Shown here one piece after another: positions 8,657-30,065 of a DNA stretch of 32,369 nucleotides. Under the pieces are notes generated by a model. That model was not told the DNA's origin and searched no databases. It worked only from the letters and a program-made list of their open reading frames with translations. Source of the stretch: a virus; IMG/VR virus record IMGVR_UViG_3300009504_000022, positions 1-32,369 of that record; one strand, 5' to 3'. The position numbers were made by a program, and so were the translations under genes. Each line of letters starts with the position of its first letter. Positions within the stretch are counted from its first letter, which is position 1.

Positions 8657-8826
8657 TGTCGGAACCCGTGATCAAGGTCGTCGAGGTCGGTGCTGACGGG
8701 AAGACCGTGGACAAGTCCGGTGCTCCCGTCGCGAAGGTGCGCGCGACCGACACCCTGACTCCAGAACAGATTCAGGAAGTGATTATCAAAACGCAGAAGA
8801 AGCTAAGGGCAAGTCATGCAACGTGA
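8656..8826 (+). CDS. Small 56-aa protein overlapping the patatin gene
   Basis: Frame MSEPVIKVVEVGADGKTVDK and onward, ending at TGA 8824-8826. GGAGG at 8645-8649 lies 6 nt before ATG 8656; ATG 8653 is only 3 nt away and less likely. The start overlaps the upstream stop (TGATG), and the stop runs 11 bp into the patatin gene. The sequence is basic and mixed: a short beta hairpin, then a helix (TPEQIQEVIIKTQKK). Length and coupling suggest a small adaptor or accessory protein, but no function can be assigned. It is short enough to be missed by common ORF length cut-offs. The strong ribosome binding site and filled gap argue that it is real. Confidence 0.6.
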   Translation: MSEPVIKVVEVGADGKTVDKSGAPVAKVRATDTLTPEQIQEVIIKTQKKLRASHAT

Positions 8827-9637
8827 GCAAGTCGACGTCGTCGTCGCAGGTGGTGCGTCGCACGTAGTAACGCTCGCCGCAGGGCTGAGTACGCTCTCGA
8901 CGATCGTGGACATTGTGAGTGTGGGCGGGGCGTCTGCTGGCGCCATCTCTGCGGCTGCGGAAGCATTCGCTGTTCCCGTCCACAAGCAGAAGGCTCTCCT
9001 GAAAAAAGTGCTGACGCGCGACTACCTGAAGGATCGAGCCTGGAATCCGCTCGACCGTTACGGTCTCTACGCGGGCGACAACCTCTACAAAGAGTTGAAG
9101 GACCTCTTTGGTGGCAAGACGATGGGCGAGGCACTCATCCCGCTGCGCGTCGTGGTCTGCGACCTTTGGACGAGGCAGCCGGTCGTCATCGAGGGTGGAC
9201 CCGGCTGCAACCCCGAGCACGCGAAGCTGAAGGTTGTGGACGCACTGCGCTGCTCGGCAGCGATCCCCGTCTTCTTCAAGGCGTGGACTCTTCCAGAATG
9301 GCGAGGCAACCGGCTCTTCGTGGACGGCGGCACTGCCGCGAACTTCGCTATGGGTATGTTCGATGACAGCCCCCGTCGCACCATCGGCTTGCGCCTCACG
9401 CCTGCGCCGATGGACGACGTGAAGCCGGTGAGGAGCCTCGTGGCGTTTTGTGAAGCCGTTGCCTCACTCGTGCTTTGGGCTTCCGACAACGCGCACATAT
9501 CGAGGAAGCGGTATGCCGATGTCATTTCGCTTCCGCAGATCGGCAGCGGTCTCAACTTCAACCTGACGGATGAGGTGTTCGAGGAGAGGTGGGCGGCTGG
9601 AGTAGCAGGGGTGCCCGGGGCTCAGTTTCTCCTATAG
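8816..9637 (+). CDS. Patatin-like phospholipase / lipid acyl hydrolase
   Basis: A 273-residue protein with the patatin signature. The nucleophile elbow G-x-S-x-G is GGASAG with Ser40 central. The second dyad residue lies in 'RLFVDGGTAANFAMG' (Asp170, DGG). The N-terminal Gly-rich loop (VVVAGGAS, residues 8-15) sits where the oxyanion hole is formed. 'ALRCSAAIPVFFKAW' (143-157) matches the conserved ASxAxPxxF helix before the Asp. Both catalytic residues are present, so it is predicted active on phospholipid or acyl esters via a Ser-Asp dyad. It has no signal peptide or TM segment. It is shorter than many bacterial patatins but retains the core. Its location in a virion operon is unusual. It could be a virion component for membrane penetration, a host-membrane or lysis effector, or cargo. 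Confidence 0.85.
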   Translation: MQREQVDVVVAGGASHVVTLAAGLSTLSTIVDIVSVGGASAGAISAAAEAFAVPVHKQKALLKKVLTRDYLKDRAWNPLDRYGLYAGDNLYKELKDLFGGKTMGEALIPLRVVVCDLWTRQPVVIEGGPGCNPEHAKLKVVDALRCSAAIPVFFKAWTLPEWRGNRLFVDGGTAANFAMGMFDDSPRRTIGLRLTPAPMDDVKPVRSLVAFCEAVASLVLWASDNAHISRKRYADVISLPQIGSGLNFNLTDEVFEERWAAGVAGVPGAQFLL

Positions 9638-15221: not shown

Positions 15222-15498
15222 CGCCACCGACGCACCGACGCGCTGGACTGTGCCTGTCGTCCCCCCCGCCGAGCACCCCGAGCTTGCGGCTCTCGCCGCA
15301 GCGCGTCTGGAACAGGCGGCACCCGTACCGCAGCTCCTCGCCCTCGACGCCTTCGTGCGCTTCGTGTTTGGCGGCAAAAACTTTGACCAGTCGGCGGGTT
15401 TCGTTCGTTGGGCGCAAAAACAATCGCTCACGCGCCAGACGCACGCACAGTGGACCTCGCATCTGGAAACTTTTCAAAACAGACGTATCGGAGGCTAG
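15205..15498 (+). CDS. Small protein of unknown function ahead of the sheath
   Basis: A 97-residue protein overlapping the 3' end of the preceding gene by 17 bp. Composition is Ala/Pro-rich at the N-terminus (TRWTVPVVPPAEHPELAALA), then helical ('AFVRFVFGGKNFDQSAGFVR'). It ends with TAG at 15496-15498. The last base pairs CTAG (15495-15498) are also the stop of the HNH gene on the opposite strand, so the two genes end tail-to-tail on a shared palindrome. Two motif copies (15306, 15461) and one TTTTCAAAAC (15471) lie inside, the last two adjacent. No family recognised. It may be a tail accessory protein. Confidence 0.55.
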   Translation: MPKKTDATDAPTRWTVPVVPPAEHPELAALAAARLEQAAPVPQLLALDAFVRFVFGGKNFDQSAGFVRWAQKQSLTRQTHAQWTSHLETFQNRRIGG

Positions 15499-16031
15499 AG
15501 CACATGCTTCCACGTCACGCCACGAGCAACGAGGCTCACAGCCACGAGGGAGACGCCGAAGCGTTCGGCCAGCTCCTTCAGCGGCGTGGCCGGCGTCTTT
15601 GCGCGTTCGTGGCGGATGGTTCGCACGTCCTCCTCCGTGAGCTTCGCAAGATGTTGCTCGGAGCCGTGAGCTTTGCGCCCGCGCTTCTTCTGGTACATGT
15701 CGTCCATGTTGGCTTTGTCGTCACCGAGGAACAGATGAGTGGGGTTGCAGCATCCCCGGTTATCGCAGCGGTGCAGGACGAGGACGCCGTCTGGAATACA
15801 GCCGCGAGCAAAGGCCCACGCAACACGATGGGCGACTGTCATGGAGAACCGCTTGCGGTCCGCAACGGTAGGCGCGCGCACGATGCCGTAACCGTGCTTC
15901 CCGCGCGTCTCGTACATCCAGCACGCGCTCTCCATTCCTCGGATGAGCGGACCGTCCTTGTCGACGTGATTCCAGAACCAGTTTTCGGTGGGTTGCCACG
16001 GGGTTTTTGTCGGACCTCGCTTGGTGTTCAT
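15495..16031 (-). CDS. HNH homing-type endonuclease
   Basis: The only minus-strand gene. I take the start at ATG complementary to 16029-16031 (178 residues), the first residue of MNTKRGPTK. The frame is open 21 codons further but would run into the sheath gene. The HNH core is clear: 'AHRVAWAFARG' (67-77), then HRCDNRGCCNPTHL (87-100) with the His/Cys pairs C89, C94, C95, H99 of zinc-type phage HNH enzymes, then GDDKANMDDMYQKKRGRK. Residues ~130-178 look like a helix-turn-helix DNA-binding tail ('LKELAERFGVSLVAVSLVAR'). Such genes are free-standing homing elements in phages. It sits between a small gene and the sheath gene, sharing the CTAG stop with the former. Promoter: only a weak TATACC at about 16041 on this strand. 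Two dispersed-motif copies are inside. Confidence 0.93.
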   Translation of the reverse strand: MNTKRGPTKTPWQPTENWFWNHVDKDGPLIRGMESACWMYETRGKHGYGIVRAPTVADRKRFSMTVAHRVAWAFARGCIPDGVLVLHRCDNRGCCNPTHLFLGDDKANMDDMYQKKRGRKAHGSEQHLAKLTEEDVRTIRHERAKTPATPLKELAERFGVSLVAVSLVARGVTWKHVL

Positions 16032-16062
16032 ACCCACAGGTATACCACGACCGTCGGGAAGG

Positions 16063-18399
16063 ATGGCTAATATCGCTACTTCAATCTTCTTCAATGGACG
16101 CGTGATCTCGGTCCCTGGCAGCTACTCTCGTGTGGACGCTTCTGGTCTGGAAAGCGTCGGTCTGGGTGCTGCCGGCATCGTCGCTGTGCTGGGGACAGCG
16201 GAAGGCGGCAAGCCGGTATCTGCGGTGACGAATCCCGGCGAACTCGCGCGCTTCACGCGCCCCGAGAAGATGCGTGCGGCGTTCCGGCTTGGGCAGCTCC
16301 GCGAGGTGGGCGGCATGCTCTTCGAGCCCGCGCGAGACGAGGACATTCTCGGGGGCGCGTCACAGGTCGTCGCCCTCAAGGTGAATCCGTCGACGCAAAG
16401 CGTGGGCGTCCTCAACAGGGCCGCAGTCCCGCAGATCGACCTCACGAGCGTCGACTACGGCGCCTTCACGGAGCAGATCAACGTCGAGGTGCAGGCAGGA
16501 ACCTCGCTCGGTAAGAAAATCACGATTCGATTCGAGGGCGCCATTGAGACGGGCGACAACATCGGAGGAGGCCCCCTCGCGTCGCTGCAATACAGCGGCG
16601 GCGGCACAGGCTACAACACCGCGACCGCGTCGGTGAACGCCGCTGGCGACATCACCGTTGACGCGACCCGCACCGGAATCGGGCAGAACAACCTCATCGA
16701 CGCACCACACGGCGGTGGCGCTGCCGAAGTCGTCTCGGCGGATGCCGGTGACATCACACAGACCGTCACGGTGTTCGGCCTCGTTGCAGGCATCGCCACG
16801 AGGGTCACGGTCCCGCTGAATGGTACGACTCCGGTGCCCCTCGGCTCTTTTGACGCGTCGAAGTTGCTCGGCGTACACATCGAAGGCGCCGCGCCCACTG
16901 CCGGTATCGTCACGGTAAGGACTGTCGCGGGGCCGGTCGACGTGTTCACGATCCCCGCCGGTCAGACGACCGAGGGTGTCATCAAGTGCGACTTCTGCTT
17001 CGTGGACAAGGCGTCATTCACGCTCGCCATCGACGCAGCAGGCACCGAAGACATTCTCGTCTTCGGGCGCAACGCAGCGATGACTCCGCTCGCGGAGCTG
17101 GTGACGCTCACAGGCGTAGTGCCGGTCGTGACTGCCGCGACCACCTACTACCTCATCGACTTTCTCGTCGTCGGCGAGCTGCCCGCAGCGCGCACCCTCA
17201 CCGCGACGGTGGTGGCTGCGAAGTCTCTCGCCACGGTGCAGACCACGGTGCAAAAGGCGGCGGACTTCTTCAACGCGAGGAGTTTCCTCGTCGCTGGCCC
17301 CGTCACGCGTGGCTTCATCTTCACTGTCCTCACGGGGCAGCGGACATTCCCGGTTGCGGAGCTGGACGTCAAGAGCAGCACCAACATCCAAGACCCCGCG
17401 ACCCTCTCGTTGTCGGCGGAGCTGTATGCCGTCATCGCCTGGATCAATCAGAACAGCGTCCTCGTGACGGCGAAGGCGTCTACGGGCGCGACTGATGTGC
17501 CCGACGACACGGTGAGTCCCGTCTTCCTTGCCGGTGGCATCGAGGGTGTGGCGCTCTTCTCGCACTACCAAGCGGCGCTGAATCTGCTGAAGCAGACGCG
17601 CGTCAACAGCATCGTCGACCTCTCAGGCGACCCTGCCGTGGCTGCGGCGGTGAACGCGCACTGTGCGTACATGGGCGGCATCGGCCGCAGCGAGCGCGAC
17701 GGCTTCGTCGGTTTGCTCAACGGTGCGATGACGGGCCTTGCCAGCAAGGCGGAGATCGTTGACCAGATCGTCGACCTCAACAGCCGCCACATGCGCGCTT
17801 GGGCGCAGACTGTGGAGCGGTTCAACACGGCCGGGGAGCGCGAGGTCTTCCCGGCGCCCTATGGCGCGGCCATCCTCGCGGGCATGCAGGCGGGTTCTCC
17901 GGTGGGCACTGCGCTCACGCACAAGTTCATGAACGTCCTCGGGATCGCGCAGCACTCGTCGTGGAACCCCACGGACGACGCGGAGGAGTTGATCAACGCG
18001 GGCCTTGTGTTCGGCGAGGCGATTGACGGCGTCGGTCGGCGCGTTGTGCGTAACGTGACGACGCACCTCACATCAAACAACATCGCTTTCGTGGAGGGCT
18101 CGGTCAACGAGGCTGTCAACTTCGCGGTGTTCAACTTCCGCACGAACCTCGAAGTCGCCGTCGGCAAACGTGGCTTCGCGGGTACGCTGTCAGCGACGCG
18201 CGCCGTGGCAATCGGCACGCTCGGCTTGCTTGTCGACGAGACCGTCATCACCGGCTGGCGCTCGCTGGACATGGAGCTGATCGTTGACGTGCTCGACGTC
18301 TCCGTCGAGCTGGCCCCCGTCATTCCCATCAACTTCGTCCGCACCACGGTGCATCTCGTCACGCTCACACAGCTCGCTGCTGCGCAAGCGGGCGCGTGA
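16063..18399 (+). CDS. Contractile tail sheath protein
   Basis: A 778-residue protein from ATG 16063 (GGGAAGG directly upstream; the open frame extends back into the HNH gene). The N-terminus has the sheath signature: 'FFNGRVISVPGSYSRVDAS' followed by GIVAVLGTAEGGKP, characteristic of contractile sheath proteins. The long middle is Thr/Val/Ala-rich and beta-folded (probably the variable outer domains; longer than many sheaths). The C-terminal region (~620-778) contains 'GTLSATRAVAIGTLGLLVDE' and ends in VIPINFVRTTVHLV, as expected for the conserved sheath C-terminal domain. It is followed by the tube gene, as usual in myoviruses. This gene sets the window as a contractile-tail phage. Only one copy of the dispersed motif lies in it (16146-16154). 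Confidence 0.95.
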   Translation: MANIATSIFFNGRVISVPGSYSRVDASGLESVGLGAAGIVAVLGTAEGGKPVSAVTNPGELARFTRPEKMRAAFRLGQLREVGGMLFEPARDEDILGGASQVVALKVNPSTQSVGVLNRAAVPQIDLTSVDYGAFTEQINVEVQAGTSLGKKITIRFEGAIETGDNIGGGPLASLQYSGGGTGYNTATASVNAAGDITVDATRTGIGQNNLIDAPHGGGAAEVVSADAGDITQTVTVFGLVAGIATRVTVPLNGTTPVPLGSFDASKLLGVHIEGAAPTAGIVTVRTVAGPVDVFTIPAGQTTEGVIKCDFCFVDKASFTLAIDAAGTEDILVFGRNAAMTPLAELVTLTGVVPVVTAATTYYLIDFLVVGELPAARTLTATVVAAKSLATVQTTVQKAADFFNARSFLVAGPVTRGFIFTVLTGQRTFPVAELDVKSSTNIQDPATLSLSAELYAVIAWINQNSVLVTAKASTGATDVPDDTVSPVFLAGGIEGVALFSHYQAALNLLKQTRVNSIVDLSGDPAVAAAVNAHCAYMGGIGRSERDGFVGLLNGAMTGLASKAEIVDQIVDLNSRHMRAWAQTVERFNTAGEREVFPAPYGAAILAGMQAGSPVGTALTHKFMNVLGIAQHSSWNPTDDAEELINAGLVFGEAIDGVGRRVVRNVTTHLTSNNIAFVEGSVNEAVNFAVFNFRTNLEVAVGKRGFAGTLSATRAVAIGTLGLLVDETVITGWRSLDMELIVDVLDVSVELAPVIPINFVRTTVHLVTLTQLAAAQAGA

Positions 18400-18429: not shown

Positions 18430-18882
18430 ATGGCTGAAGGTGAAAAGGGTCGAGTCTTCACGGGTGCGCGCGCCCGTCTGCTGATTGAAGGGCAGAAGGT
18501 CGGCTACGCGCGAAACTGCAATGGACGTGAGGAGATTCAGTACGAGCCTGTGGAGGTGCTCGACAACATCGAAGTCGAGGAGCACGTCCCCGTCCGCTAC
18601 CGAGTCACGTTCTCCATGTCGCGTGTGCGCATCGTCAAGGAGACGTTGAAGAGCCTCGGGTACTACCCGAAGCTCGGCAACAACCCCGGTGAGCACCTCT
18701 TGAACATCCTCACGTCAGGGACGCTCACGGTTGCCATCGAGGACAACAAAACCGGGTCGCCGATCATGATTCTGGAGCAGGCGAAGGCACAATCGAAAAA
18801 CTTCTCCGTCGATGCCTCGGGCATGGTCGCAGAGGACGTCGACTTCGTGGCCATTCGCATGAGGGACGAATCTGAGGTCTAG
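18430..18882 (+). CDS. Tail tube protein
   Basis: A 150-residue protein with a near-consensus AAGGAGG upstream. It opens 'GRVFTGARARLLIEGQKVGY' and contains a beta-barrel pattern (EEIQYEPVEVLDNIEVEEHV, then 'VRYRVTFSMSRVRIVK'), followed by 'TLTVAIEDNKTGSPIMILEQ'. This matches XkdM/gp19-type tube proteins (about 140-160 residues), which stack as hexameric rings inside the sheath. The location directly after the sheath strongly supports this. It ends 23 bp before the next gene. I see no unusual features. Confidence 0.85.
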   Translation: MAEGEKGRVFTGARARLLIEGQKVGYARNCNGREEIQYEPVEVLDNIEVEEHVPVRYRVTFSMSRVRIVKETLKSLGYYPKLGNNPGEHLLNILTSGTLTVAIEDNKTGSPIMILEQAKAQSKNFSVDASGMVAEDVDFVAIRMRDESEV

Positions 18883-19208: not shown

Positions 19209-19673
19209 ATGACCGAGATGGATGACAGGCTGAAGAAGCTGGAGATGACGCATCTCCCGATGAGTGACCTGAAAGCGCAGGTTGCATCCTCCATGGATGA
19301 GAAACCCCCCGAGGACCCGAAGCGGCTGGCCCGGCTCAACGCGCGCTACACCTTCCGGTTCGACTTCACCGCGAAGAACGGGAAGCGCTGGGAGGGCACG
19401 TTCACCTCGGTGATCCCGACCATCAAGACTCGGCAGATGATCGGAGTGCTGCGGTCGCAGATGGGCGGCGGCGCCCCCATCGGCTCGCTCGACAACTACG
19501 TCGACAACCTCAACTACGCCGTCGCGCACCTCACGTTCATGCTCGACGAGACGGCGCCTGACTTTCCAGAGTGGGCGAATGACCTTCGCAACCTCGATGA
19601 TCCGTCGGTTGTGTTCGCCTTGTGGAATACGGAGGTACAGCCTCACGAGGCTATGTTTCTCGGACGAGAGTGA
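19209..19673 (+). CDS. Tail assembly chaperone, short (unshifted) form
   Basis: A 154-residue protein from ATG 19209. An N-terminal acidic/helical stretch (DRLKKLEMTHLPMSDLKAQV) precedes a beta-sandwich with 'NARYTFRFDFTAKNGKRWEG', then SVIPTIKTRQMIGVLRSQ and a C-terminal helical part (NYAVAHLTFMLDETAPDF). The position between tube and tape measure is that of the gpG-type chaperone that binds the tape measure before tube polymerisation. The downstream frame lacks a start of its own and is open across the stop, so this product is expected to be extended by frameshift in a fraction of translations (the gpG-T analogue). It lies downstream of the RBS hairpin at 19186. Confidence 0.8.
   Translation: MTEMDDRLKKLEMTHLPMSDLKAQVASSMDEKPPEDPKRLARLNARYTFRFDFTAKNGKRWEGTFTSVIPTIKTRQMIGVLRSQMGGGAPIGSLDNYVDNLNYAVAHLTFMLDETAPDFPEWANDLRNLDDPSVVFALWNTEVQPHEAMFLGRE
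19666..19673 (+). other. Candidate -2 programmed ribosomal frameshift site
   Basis: The end of the short chaperone reads CGA GAG TGA. The last sense codon GAG (19668-19670) can slip back two bases onto an identical GAG (19666-19668) with full repairing of tRNA-Glu. Translation then continues AGT GAG ATC in the open downstream frame. The adjacent stop would promote pausing. Tail assembly chaperones commonly use frameshifts: -1 mostly, -2 in phage Mu. A +1 shift could give the same frame, but no good slippery sequence for it is visible. Confidence 0.55.
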
Positions 19674-20022
19674 GATCCGCTCTCGGGCAAAGAGGAACGC
19701 CACGGACGGTCTTGCTAGACTGCGCCGATGGTGGTCAAAAAAATACGGCAGGCCGACCACCGATGACGTTTTCCAGAACAGCACCTACCCGGAGCTGTTG
19801 GAGGAGTTCTACGAAGATCTGTGGGTTGAGAAACGACAGCTCGAAGCGATCGAGCAGGAGAACGGCAAGCTGGAGAAGTACGACCGTGAAAGGCTGAAGT
19901 ACGTGTGCGCCCTACTAGACATAACGGACTACGTCTCAGACGATCCGCTGTTCGATAAGTGGGAGCGCGAGCTGGCGGCTGGCCTGACCCCTGACCTCAA
20001 CGAAGGGCTCCCCGATGGCTGA
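19669..20022 (+). CDS. Tail assembly chaperone, frameshift extension (T-like part)
   Basis: This frame is open from upstream of the short chaperone's stop to TGA 20020-20022. It has no plausible start of its own: its ATGs at 19579 and 19597 are inside the chaperone-coding region and have no ribosome binding site. From the proposed shift point it reads 117 residues: 'SEIRSRAKRNATDGLARLRR' and a helical domain ('ELLEEFYEDLWVEKRQLEAI'), a typical chaperone T-domain size. The fused product would be ~271 residues. It overlaps the tape measure start by 8 bp. It carries the motif copy TTTTCCAGAAC at 19769. Confidence 0.65.
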   Translation, partial: SEIRSRAKRNATDGLARLRRWWSKKYGRPTTDDVFQNSTYPELLEEFYEDLWVEKRQLEAIEQENGKLEKYDRERLKYVCALLDITDYVSDDPLFDKWERELAAGLTPDLNEGLPDG

Positions 20023-22120
20023 CAAAAAAACAACCGTCTCTCTTGAGTTTCACGCGAAGGGTGCCGAGAAGTCCGAGAGACAGATCAAGAAGACCTTCGA
20101 TGCGATGGACCCGTCGGAGGCGATGGAGAAGTTCGACAAGCTCGCCGACAAGCTGGAGGACTTGGGTAAGGTGTTCAAGCGCCTCGAAAACAGCGCCGAC
20201 CTCAAGGGCATGACGGATAGCATCCGTGACATGACCCACGCGGTCGTTGAGCTAACGAACGCGAAGAAGAAGGACCACGAACAGGACGAGCGCAGCGCGG
20301 GAAGACACAGCTTTCGCACCGGACTCGTACAAGGCGCGGGGGTAGGGCAGTTCATCCCGCCAAACGTCAGGATGGCTAGGTACGCGGGGGGACAGCTCGT
20401 GGGGCGTGCCGCGCGTGGGGCCGCAGGCGCAGCGTACGGCTCCACAATCGGGGCAGCGTTCGGAGGCGCAGGCGCCATGGGCCAGGGCCTCGCTGGCATC
20501 CCTGGGGTCGGCCCAGCGCTCGCGGGCCAGTTCCAGAACCTCATGGGCGCGGCGCAGGAGGCGCTGTCGCACGAGGGGGCGAGGTACGCGCAGCGTGAGA
20601 CTGAGGGCCTCTTCACCGGCCCGGCCCGGAGAGCAGCGGCGCGGGTGGCAGGTGACGCAGCAGCAGCAGCAGCGCCACAAGAGGATGTCTTCGCCGCGAT
20701 GGATGCCGCGCGGAAAGGGGCGTCGACATCGGAGGGCAAGCTGGGTGCGGCGGGGGAGTCCTACAACGCCCGCCTCGCGGCTATGGTCCAACACCGGATG
20801 GTCACCGAGGGCTTCCCCGAAAAGCGCCCCTCTCTGGGGCCGGGGGTCTCGTACGACAAGAGAAGAACCGAGATCGAGTACGAGCTGAACAGAACGCTGC
20901 AAGCTAAGGGCGAAGGCTCTAACCGGGACATGGAGAATATCGTACGGGCGGCGGGGCAAGCCGCGACCGACCGAAACGAGGCGGCAAAGGCGAAGGCTCG
21001 GTCGGAGGCCGCAAGCCCGGCCAGTCCTTTCCAGATGATGGCTCGGGCGGGTGTGCGGTTCGGAATGGGGCCGGATGCAGCGGTGGAGTTCGGAGGTTCG
21101 CTTGCCAGGGCGGGGGGTGGCACCCTCGCCCAGTTCGACAACACGAACATGCAGCTCGCGATGGCGCTGAAGCAGTTGGGCGTCGGACCTGAAGCCACGG
21201 GCATGATGGCGCGCGGTGCGCGCACAGGTGCCACAGGTGAAGGGGATTTCACGAGCGTCATGATGGCGTCTATGAAGGGCGGCGTGGCGCTGGGACTAGA
21301 TGCAAGTGACCTCGCCAACTACATGCAGGATATGGCGCACAACATCGCGTCTTGGGATCAGACCGGCATGTCGGTCAACGTCGACAACATCAAAGAGCTA
21401 CAGCAACAGACTGCGATGACCGGGCTCGGCGGGATTCAGGGCGCCCGTGTTGCGGCGGGCCTCAAGGTGGTGGGCGACGAGATAGCGGTGGGCGGGCCGC
21501 AGTCTGCGTCGCAGATGCTCATGATGCGTGAGCTGTACGGCTACCAGGGCGGGGGCATCGAGGACTGGCAGGCGGCGAAGGTGCGCGCCGAAGTCGGGGA
21601 CCTCACCAAAGGAAGTGGGGTGGAAGGGCTCCTACGCACCGTCATGGGGCAGGCGGGTGACGGGACTGGTCCCGCCACACAGGCAGCACGCACGGAGGCT
21701 TTGCAGAACTTCTTCAAGAACGTGAACATCACCCTGGGGCCGACCCTGGCGGGGAGGATCGCTGGCGGGGATGAGGGGGCAGTGCTCAGAGTGCAGGAGG
21801 AGCTGCGAGCAGCGCGATCCAAAAGCGTCACCGAAGCAGATGTTCTCAGAGCCGGAGAAGCGACCGGCGCGCTTCAGGAGGAAGCTGTCGTCAAAGGAAA
21901 GCGTATCACTGCGGGCTACAAGGGACTTCCCGCCATGCAAGAGCTGGAGCACGCGACGACGACAATGTTGAAGAACGCGTCTGCGTTCGGGGGCATATTG
22001 GACACACTGGCGGGGGTCGGCTCTGACATCGCGGAACTCCTCGGGCCGGGCGCGAAAAACCTCGCGATGATCCTCGAAGACTTGGCTCGCCGCACAGGGC
22101 TTGGAACGGCGGAGCACTGA
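20015..22120 (+). CDS. Tape measure protein
   Basis: A 701-residue protein. N-terminal ~100 residues are a charged coiled coil (EKSERQIKKTFDAMDPSEAM, then 'LADKLEDLGKVFKRLENSAD'). Residues ~125-175 are Gly/Ala-rich and hydrophobic, as in the membrane-active segment of tape measures. The rest is a long Ala/Gly/Met-rich helical body ('AGVRFGMGPDAAVEFGGSLA'). Location after the tail assembly chaperone and before the hub is canonical. At about 0.15 nm per residue this would set a tail of roughly 105 nm, short to average for a myovirus. A small CAG run (~20658-20672) encodes a poly-Ala stretch. It ends TGATG, overlapping the next gene by one base. Confidence 0.85.
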   Translation: MADKKTTVSLEFHAKGAEKSERQIKKTFDAMDPSEAMEKFDKLADKLEDLGKVFKRLENSADLKGMTDSIRDMTHAVVELTNAKKKDHEQDERSAGRHSFRTGLVQGAGVGQFIPPNVRMARYAGGQLVGRAARGAAGAAYGSTIGAAFGGAGAMGQGLAGIPGVGPALAGQFQNLMGAAQEALSHEGARYAQRETEGLFTGPARRAAARVAGDAAAAAAPQEDVFAAMDAARKGASTSEGKLGAAGESYNARLAAMVQHRMVTEGFPEKRPSLGPGVSYDKRRTEIEYELNRTLQAKGEGSNRDMENIVRAAGQAATDRNEAAKAKARSEAASPASPFQMMARAGVRFGMGPDAAVEFGGSLARAGGGTLAQFDNTNMQLAMALKQLGVGPEATGMMARGARTGATGEGDFTSVMMASMKGGVALGLDASDLANYMQDMAHNIASWDQTGMSVNVDNIKELQQQTAMTGLGGIQGARVAAGLKVVGDEIAVGGPQSASQMLMMRELYGYQGGGIEDWQAAKVRAEVGDLTKGSGVEGLLRTVMGQAGDGTGPATQAARTEALQNFFKNVNITLGPTLAGRIAGGDEGAVLRVQEELRAARSKSVTEADVLRAGEATGALQEEAVVKGKRITAGYKGLPAMQELEHATTTMLKNASAFGGILDTLAGVGSDIAELLGPGAKNLAMILEDLARRTGLGTAEH

Positions 22121-29123: not shown

Positions 29124-30065
29124 ATGGCGCGCACAAAGATCACCCTGACGAACGACGCGCGCGTCCCGAGGGTGGTCGCATTCGCCAACGGCGTGTCGTG
29201 GTACGCGTATCTCCGCGAGTCAGGGGGGCTCTACGTCCAACGCTTCTTCGGAGACACTTTCGGCGCGGAGACGCTCGTGGTCGCTACGGCGGCTTGGGTG
29301 GACATCATCCACGATCCTGTCGCAAGCGAAGCGTGGATCTACTTCATTCACGACGGCACCGTGTTCCGCATGCGCGTCACGGATGATCTGGAAACGCCCT
29401 CCCTCCAAGTGTTCCAGCGCAGCACCGGCTGGAACGTCGTCGTGGAGCGAGCACAGGCCGGCGAGCCCTCGGCGGCAAGGTGGTCGCTAACGCCCGCCCC
29501 TCCGGTAAAGCTCGCGCGATCGGAGTCGGTGACCCCCTCCCTGCCGGGCGAACCAAGCGCCGCTTCCTTCTCCCCCCGGGTGTTCTTCCCGCCGAACATC
29601 GCGCTCGTGCTCTCAGGTGATCCCTCGCTGCGGCTGCTCGTCATCACACAGCCTGCCGCATCCTCGATCGAGAGGATTCGGTTCGTGCGTGTCTATCGCG
29701 CCGATCCGTTTCAAAACGGGCTCCAGCTCCATGCGACGCTCGCCTGCCCACCAAGCACGTTCCAGCTCTCCCTGTTGGTGCCCGCAAACACGGGCTCCAC
29801 CGTCGCGTGGGCTGCGGTGAACGTACGCGACGACGGACTCGTCAGTGGCCTCTCGGCGTTGGTTTTTGAGTTCCCCGGCTTTGAGTGGAAGCTCGGAGAT
29901 GGCATCCGAGGAGCCCCTCCCGGCGAACCATCCGCAGCAAAGTGGACGCTGACGCCAGCCCCCCCGATCAAGTACGCTGCTACCCCCGACCCCGTCAGCG
30001 GACTGCCGTCGGGCGAACCATCCGCAGCAAGCTGGGCAGTCAACGGCGTCGACATTCTGAAGTGA
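29124..30065 (+). CDS. Baseplate/fibre-associated protein with GEPSAA repeats
   Basis: A 313-residue protein that starts one base after the J-like stop. The first ~100 residues are beta (SWYAYLRESGGLYVQRFFGD). Four repeats of the type GEPSAA[RSK][WF] occur: residues ~113-130 (with SLTPAPPVK), ~142-149, ~267-283 (with TLTPAPPIK) and ~297-304. They lie as two pairs on either side of a central beta domain (~150-250, 'SSIERIRFVRVYRADPFQNG'). These Pro/Ala repeats suggest flexible linkers or copied adhesive segments. The last two are encoded by an identical 19-mer, 90 bp apart. It could be a fibre-attachment protein or the tail-fibre connector. I recognise no family. Confidence 0.6.
   Translation: MARTKITLTNDARVPRVVAFANGVSWYAYLRESGGLYVQRFFGDTFGAETLVVATAAWVDIIHDPVASEAWIYFIHDGTVFRMRVTDDLETPSLQVFQRSTGWNVVVERAQAGEPSAARWSLTPAPPVKLARSESVTPSLPGEPSAASFSPRVFFPPNIALVLSGDPSLRLLVITQPAASSIERIRFVRVYRADPFQNGLQLHATLACPPSTFQLSLLVPANTGSTVAWAAVNVRDDGLVSGLSALVFEFPGFEWKLGDGIRGAPPGEPSAAKWTLTPAPPIKYAATPDPVSGLPSGEPSAASWAVNGVDILK
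29460..30036 (+). repeat. Four GEPSAA-encoding repeats
   Basis: Repeats start at about 29460, 29549, 29922 and 30012. Copies 3 and 4 share the 19-mer GGCGAACCATCCGCAGCAA (29922-29940 and 30012-30030). Copies 1 and 3 also share the 3' extension encoding LTPAPP[VI]K. This suggests duplication of a two-unit segment. Confidence 0.7.
29706..29719 (+). repeat. Perfect palindrome CCGTTT-CA-AAACGG
   Basis: A 14-bp dyad with a CA centre, including TTTCAAAAC. It is related to the TTTTCAAAAC palindromes at 11366 and 19033. Confidence 0.45.

Follow-up and report, generated by a model that had tools for sequence, protein, structure and literature searches.

We found that a tail assembly chaperone (TAC) gene of a contractile-tailed phage is very probably, at about 92%, decoded into two forms by a programmed +1 frameshift at the slip site UUU_CUC (19656-19661, plus strand). 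Positions are those of the window, by which we mean the whole 32,369-base IMG/VR virus record IMGVR_UViG_3300009504_000022. Most ribosomes would read ORF A (19209-19673, plus strand) to its TGA at 19671-19673 and release a 154-aa chaperone. In a minority, the peptidyl-tRNA-Phe on UUU 19656-19658, with CUC in the A site, would slip one base forward and pair with UUC 19657-19659, and reading would resume at UCG GAC GAG AGU GAG. The product would be a 270-aa fusion, in which residues 1-150 of A are followed by 120 residues of a second domain encoded in another frame, frame B. The slip itself we infer from sequence patterns, and its efficiency from known TACs. By analogy with lambda gpG/gpGT, both forms would act in tail assembly, the short form coating the tape-measure protein and the fusion recruiting tail-tube subunits.

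Chaperone gene and overlapping frame

In the window, the genes for the sheath (15988-18399, phrog_279) and a tube-like protein (18430-18882, phrog_985) are followed by ORF A, frame B and a 701-codon ORF in the tape-measure position (20015-22120, plus strand). The last was assigned by synteny, having no family match of its own in the family searches, and SPO1, Adastra and others have the same gene order. Just upstream of the sheath gene lies an HNH_3 endonuclease gene on the minus strand (15495-16094; Pfam E=7e-12), likely a homing endonuclease oriented opposite to the structural genes. It overlaps the first GTG of the sheath ORF (15988), and the true sheath start is probably a later ATG preceding ANIATSIFFNG. 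The structural gene region also contains a patatin-like phospholipase gene (8816-9637; Pfam PF01734, E=2e-17), and an ORF at 29124-30065 carries several GEPSAA(R/S/K)(W/F) repeats with no Pfam match.

ORF A encodes an N-terminal TAC domain that matches the tail assembly chaperone family phrog_25000 (E=3e-4), and the profile of the A family matches SPO1 gp10.2 (E=3.8e-11). The AlphaFold model of A is confident (pLDDT 88), and a BFVD search with it matched annotated TACs of phages, including that of Bacillus phage JL (E=2e-4); a fold search of the PDB with the same model returned nothing significant. The C-terminal extension in frame B, which begins FSDESEIR and includes a WW pair (19657-20022, plus strand; 120 aa from TCG 19660), was modelled as helical (pLDDT 88). 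In the separate models, the last helix of A stops at residue 150 and the first helix of B starts at B residue 2, which is consistent with one unbroken helix across the junction.

Frame B is +1, or equivalently -2, relative to A. As the first-pass annotation had stated, it is open across the stop codon of the short form, from 19441 to the TGA at 20020-20022, where its end overlaps the start of the ORF at 20015. For comparison, we collected 23 loci by scanning with the sheath protein and with B, and a B alignment search gave 42 matches on contigs partly shared with those loci. Pairing of A and B profiles resulted in 44 distinct loci, the window included; grouped by the nucleotides around the site at 75% identity, these form 39 clusters, among which the median pairwise identity of the fused protein is 33%. 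The window's protein A as a query against viral contigs gave no matches, and a search of genome contigs with B found no prophage relatives. Wherever both profiles match, B is offset by +1 from A, so that an open overlapping frame encoding a conserved protein is more than chance would give. An alignment of frame B from 18 loci has F1, A11, W25, D96, L98, D100, W102 and E103 invariant. As in TACs of the G/GT type, a domain homologous to a known TAC is thus followed by a second one in another frame, conserved as a protein and without a conserved start.

The proposed UUU_Y slip site

We mapped the site interval in 32 loci, numbering codons from Phe 150 of A, which is invariant in them. In the +1 frame, stops occur as far as codon -6 and are absent from -5 on, and the A frame first shows stops at +4; any slip site common to these loci must therefore lie within that interval, which holds HEAxF and then several variable residues. 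The protein would be almost identical if the +1 shift took place at a different codon from -5 to +3. At the F codon, conservation moves from A to the +1 frame, with B exceeding A from about codon +5, and frame B reads F-[SAG]-D from this codon in many loci.

The codon at F150 is TTT in 36 of the 39 clusters, whereas two control Phe columns of the same genes, invariant or nearly so, have TTT in 12/39 and 8/38 (Fisher p about 4e-14). Phe codons elsewhere in these genes are more often TTC (109) than TTT (50). On the tree, TTT and TTC interchange at least 11 and at least 8 times at the control columns, against a single switch at the site. In all 36 clusters with TTT, that codon is followed by C or T, compared with a first-base pyrimidine frequency of 0.38. 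The residue after the Phe changed at least 15 times on the tree (among L, R, H, F and W), never to a purine-initial codon. tRNA-Phe re-pairs well at +1 only with a pyrimidine as the fourth base, and a pyrimidine after UUU is therefore the pattern expected for slippage on UUU_Y. In the window, UUU_C provides the in-frame UUU and a base permitting +1 re-pairing; the A-site codon is CUC instead of the CGN of twelve cultured relatives, CGN being a trait of the known UUU_C examples (PA-X, HF1) and not an established requirement. By a crude ORF count, the window's contig uses CUC more than any other Leu codon, so there is no obvious rare-codon pause at this site. The three clusters lacking TTT (L021, L041 and L052) have TTC, CTT or TAC followed by AAA AGT, in which AAA_A would allow a +1 slip by tRNA-Lys. 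In these loci and in L051, where UUU is likewise replaced and AAA AGT comes next, A extends about 45-48 codons past the site.

A possible stimulator is formed by the conserved codons CAC GAG GCT ATG before the slip site (19644-19655, plus strand), in which a weak Shine-Dalgarno-like GAGG ends 5 nt before UUU. Anti-Shine-Dalgarno pairing is maximal 5-9 nt upstream of UUU, and 67% of the loci reach -5 kcal/mol or better, against 22% of in-gene control windows (p=2e-5). The pairing signal is confounded by the conserved His-Glu codons and is only suggestive of a stimulatory role. Downstream, an 8-bp hairpin (19665-19685, plus strand) begins 7 nt after the UUU codon, and the 100-nt stretch has z = -2.7; a search for conserved downstream RNA structure in the 39 loci found this hairpin unshared (mean z -0.5).

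Alternative routes to the second domain

The first-pass annotation had placed a -2 shift at GAGAG (19666-19670, plus strand), four codons downstream of the UUU and inside the window-specific hairpin. In this proposal, tRNA-Glu slips from GAG 19668-19670 to GAG 19666-19668 ahead of the TGA. The sequence CGA GAG TGA is indeed present at 19665-19673 with the two GAG codons overlapping, so exact re-pairing is possible. The stop codon in the A site could also pause the ribosome, the reading frame agrees, and phage Mu provides a precedent (PMC5009743, PMC3498833). However, GAGAG before the stop codon occurs in the window alone: relatives differ in their overlaps and do not conserve it, an outcome that the annotation had itself named as refuting its proposal. 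The stop of A lies 4 to 50 codons past the conserved Phe, depending on the locus, and in L017 and L018 it falls at +4, the position of the window's GAG, which is therefore unusable as a slip site there. Codons that would re-pair identically at -2 number 26 per 1504 overlap codons in the 39 loci; the 76-codon overlap of the window should hold about 1.3 of them and contains two, so GAGAG is not above chance. Moreover, the frame-B residues FSDE, which lie upstream of GAGAG, are already conserved in relatives. A conserved codon pair for re-pairing two bases back, as in TACs of the Mu type, is absent; we also considered -2 re-pairing of CTC to TTC, which fails in the relatives that carry CGC, CAT or TGG at that codon. 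We consider a -2 shift at GAGAG very unlikely. What stands of the earlier proposal is a programmed shift into the +1/-2 frame of a TAC; its site, and probably its direction, do not. The two could be told apart by peptides, as the +1 shift at UUU_CUC would create the junction PHEAMF-SDESEIR and the tryptic peptide NLDDPSVVFALWNTEVQPHEAMFSDESEIR, and the -2 shift would instead create EAMFLGRE-SEIR, with the peptides NLDDPSVVFALWNTEVQPHEAMFLGR and ESEIR. The corresponding +1 junction in SPO1 would read HSF-VNQV.

More improbable still is that B is made as a separate protein, by an internal start or by re-initiation past the stop of A. The window does have ATG 19579, ATG 19597 and TTG 19609 in frame B, contrary to the earlier claim that B has no start of its own, and the annotation of several cultured relatives lists B as its own gene. 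The claim holds in that none of these starts is conserved: 11 of the 39 loci have no ATG, GTG or TTG from the start of the open frame to codon +12, and some relatives have +1-frame stops close upstream of the site. Furthermore, existing annotations treat the SPO1 and Adastra proteins as +1 fusions ("ribosomal slippage" and "+1 frameshift product", respectively), with the slip codon unnamed. In most of the public relatives examined, the fused domain is a separate hypothetical gene. Such records include L026, L027, L071, L072, L074-L077 and L079, all of which have UUU_CGN where the slip site would be expected. Finally, joining of the frames by polymerase slippage on a homopolymer, as known in some genes (PMC5009743), or by a sequencing indel can be practically dismissed, as the run here is just three T and 44 distinct loci from many samples share the relative frame.

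Comparison with known frameshift systems

The closest counterpart of the +1 shift at UUU_CUC is Bacillus phage SPO1 gp10.2/gp10.2-gp11.1, which shares with the window a homologous A domain, the gene order and, within the overlap, a UUU_C close to the end of A. In SPO1 the next codon is CGU instead of CUC, the B domain is longer and acidic, and the sequence identity is weak. The open overlap holds UCC_UUU_CGU in SPO1 and UCC_UUU_CGC in Adastra, and UUU_CGN is found at the equivalent place in twelve cultured phages, namely these two, LysYB1, EalM-132, Goe26, PHB04, Dolphis, Touem01, ST4, phiT5282EW, fHe-Yen8-01 and Mecenats66. The SPO1 sequence is exactly the site of influenza A PA-X, at which +1 slippage on UUU_C was fixed by peptide evidence, with a wider UUU_C class of +1 sites predicted (Firth 2012, PMC3498833). 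PA-X resembles the window in the P-site UUU_C and the +1 slip of tRNA-Phe to UUC; its gene and ribosome are unrelated, and the analogy is one of mechanism only. TTT-CGC was proposed as the site for HF1-group haloviruses (PMC7230728, 2020), whose TAC pair likewise precedes the tape measure in a +1 relation with TTT_C near the end of A. Their host is archaeal and their codon is CGC, and the likeness is one of arrangement and site. A narrow literature search, which did not cover the SPO1 genome paper, found nothing on UUU_CGN in phages beyond the halovirus proposal.

The tens of natural variants suggest that a minimal bacterial +1 site needs UUU with a pyrimidine next, the following codon being widely free. 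It is an evenly balanced question whether UUU_Y +1 slippage, aided by a weak upstream SD-like element, tolerant of many A-site codons and occasionally replaced by AAA_A, is an ancient TAC signal shared by a large set of contractile-tailed phages (the SPO1 group, the PHB04/Dolphis group, the window's uncultured group and perhaps the HF1 haloviruses), in which the real requirement would be UUU plus a pyrimidine rather than UUU_CGN.

Like lambda gpG/gpGT and the Mu TAC, the window gene precedes the tape-measure gene and would yield a short and a long chaperone from a single start. Lambda uses -1 and Mu uses -2 (PMC5009743); the window and its relatives conserve neither type of site, and what had appeared to be a second phage case of -2 frameshifting is thereby corrected. 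A -1 shift at GTTTTT is known from Vandenendeviridae myophages (PMC12846349). The probable frameshift in the window's TAC adds to the already known types of TAC frameshift and of UUU_C site.
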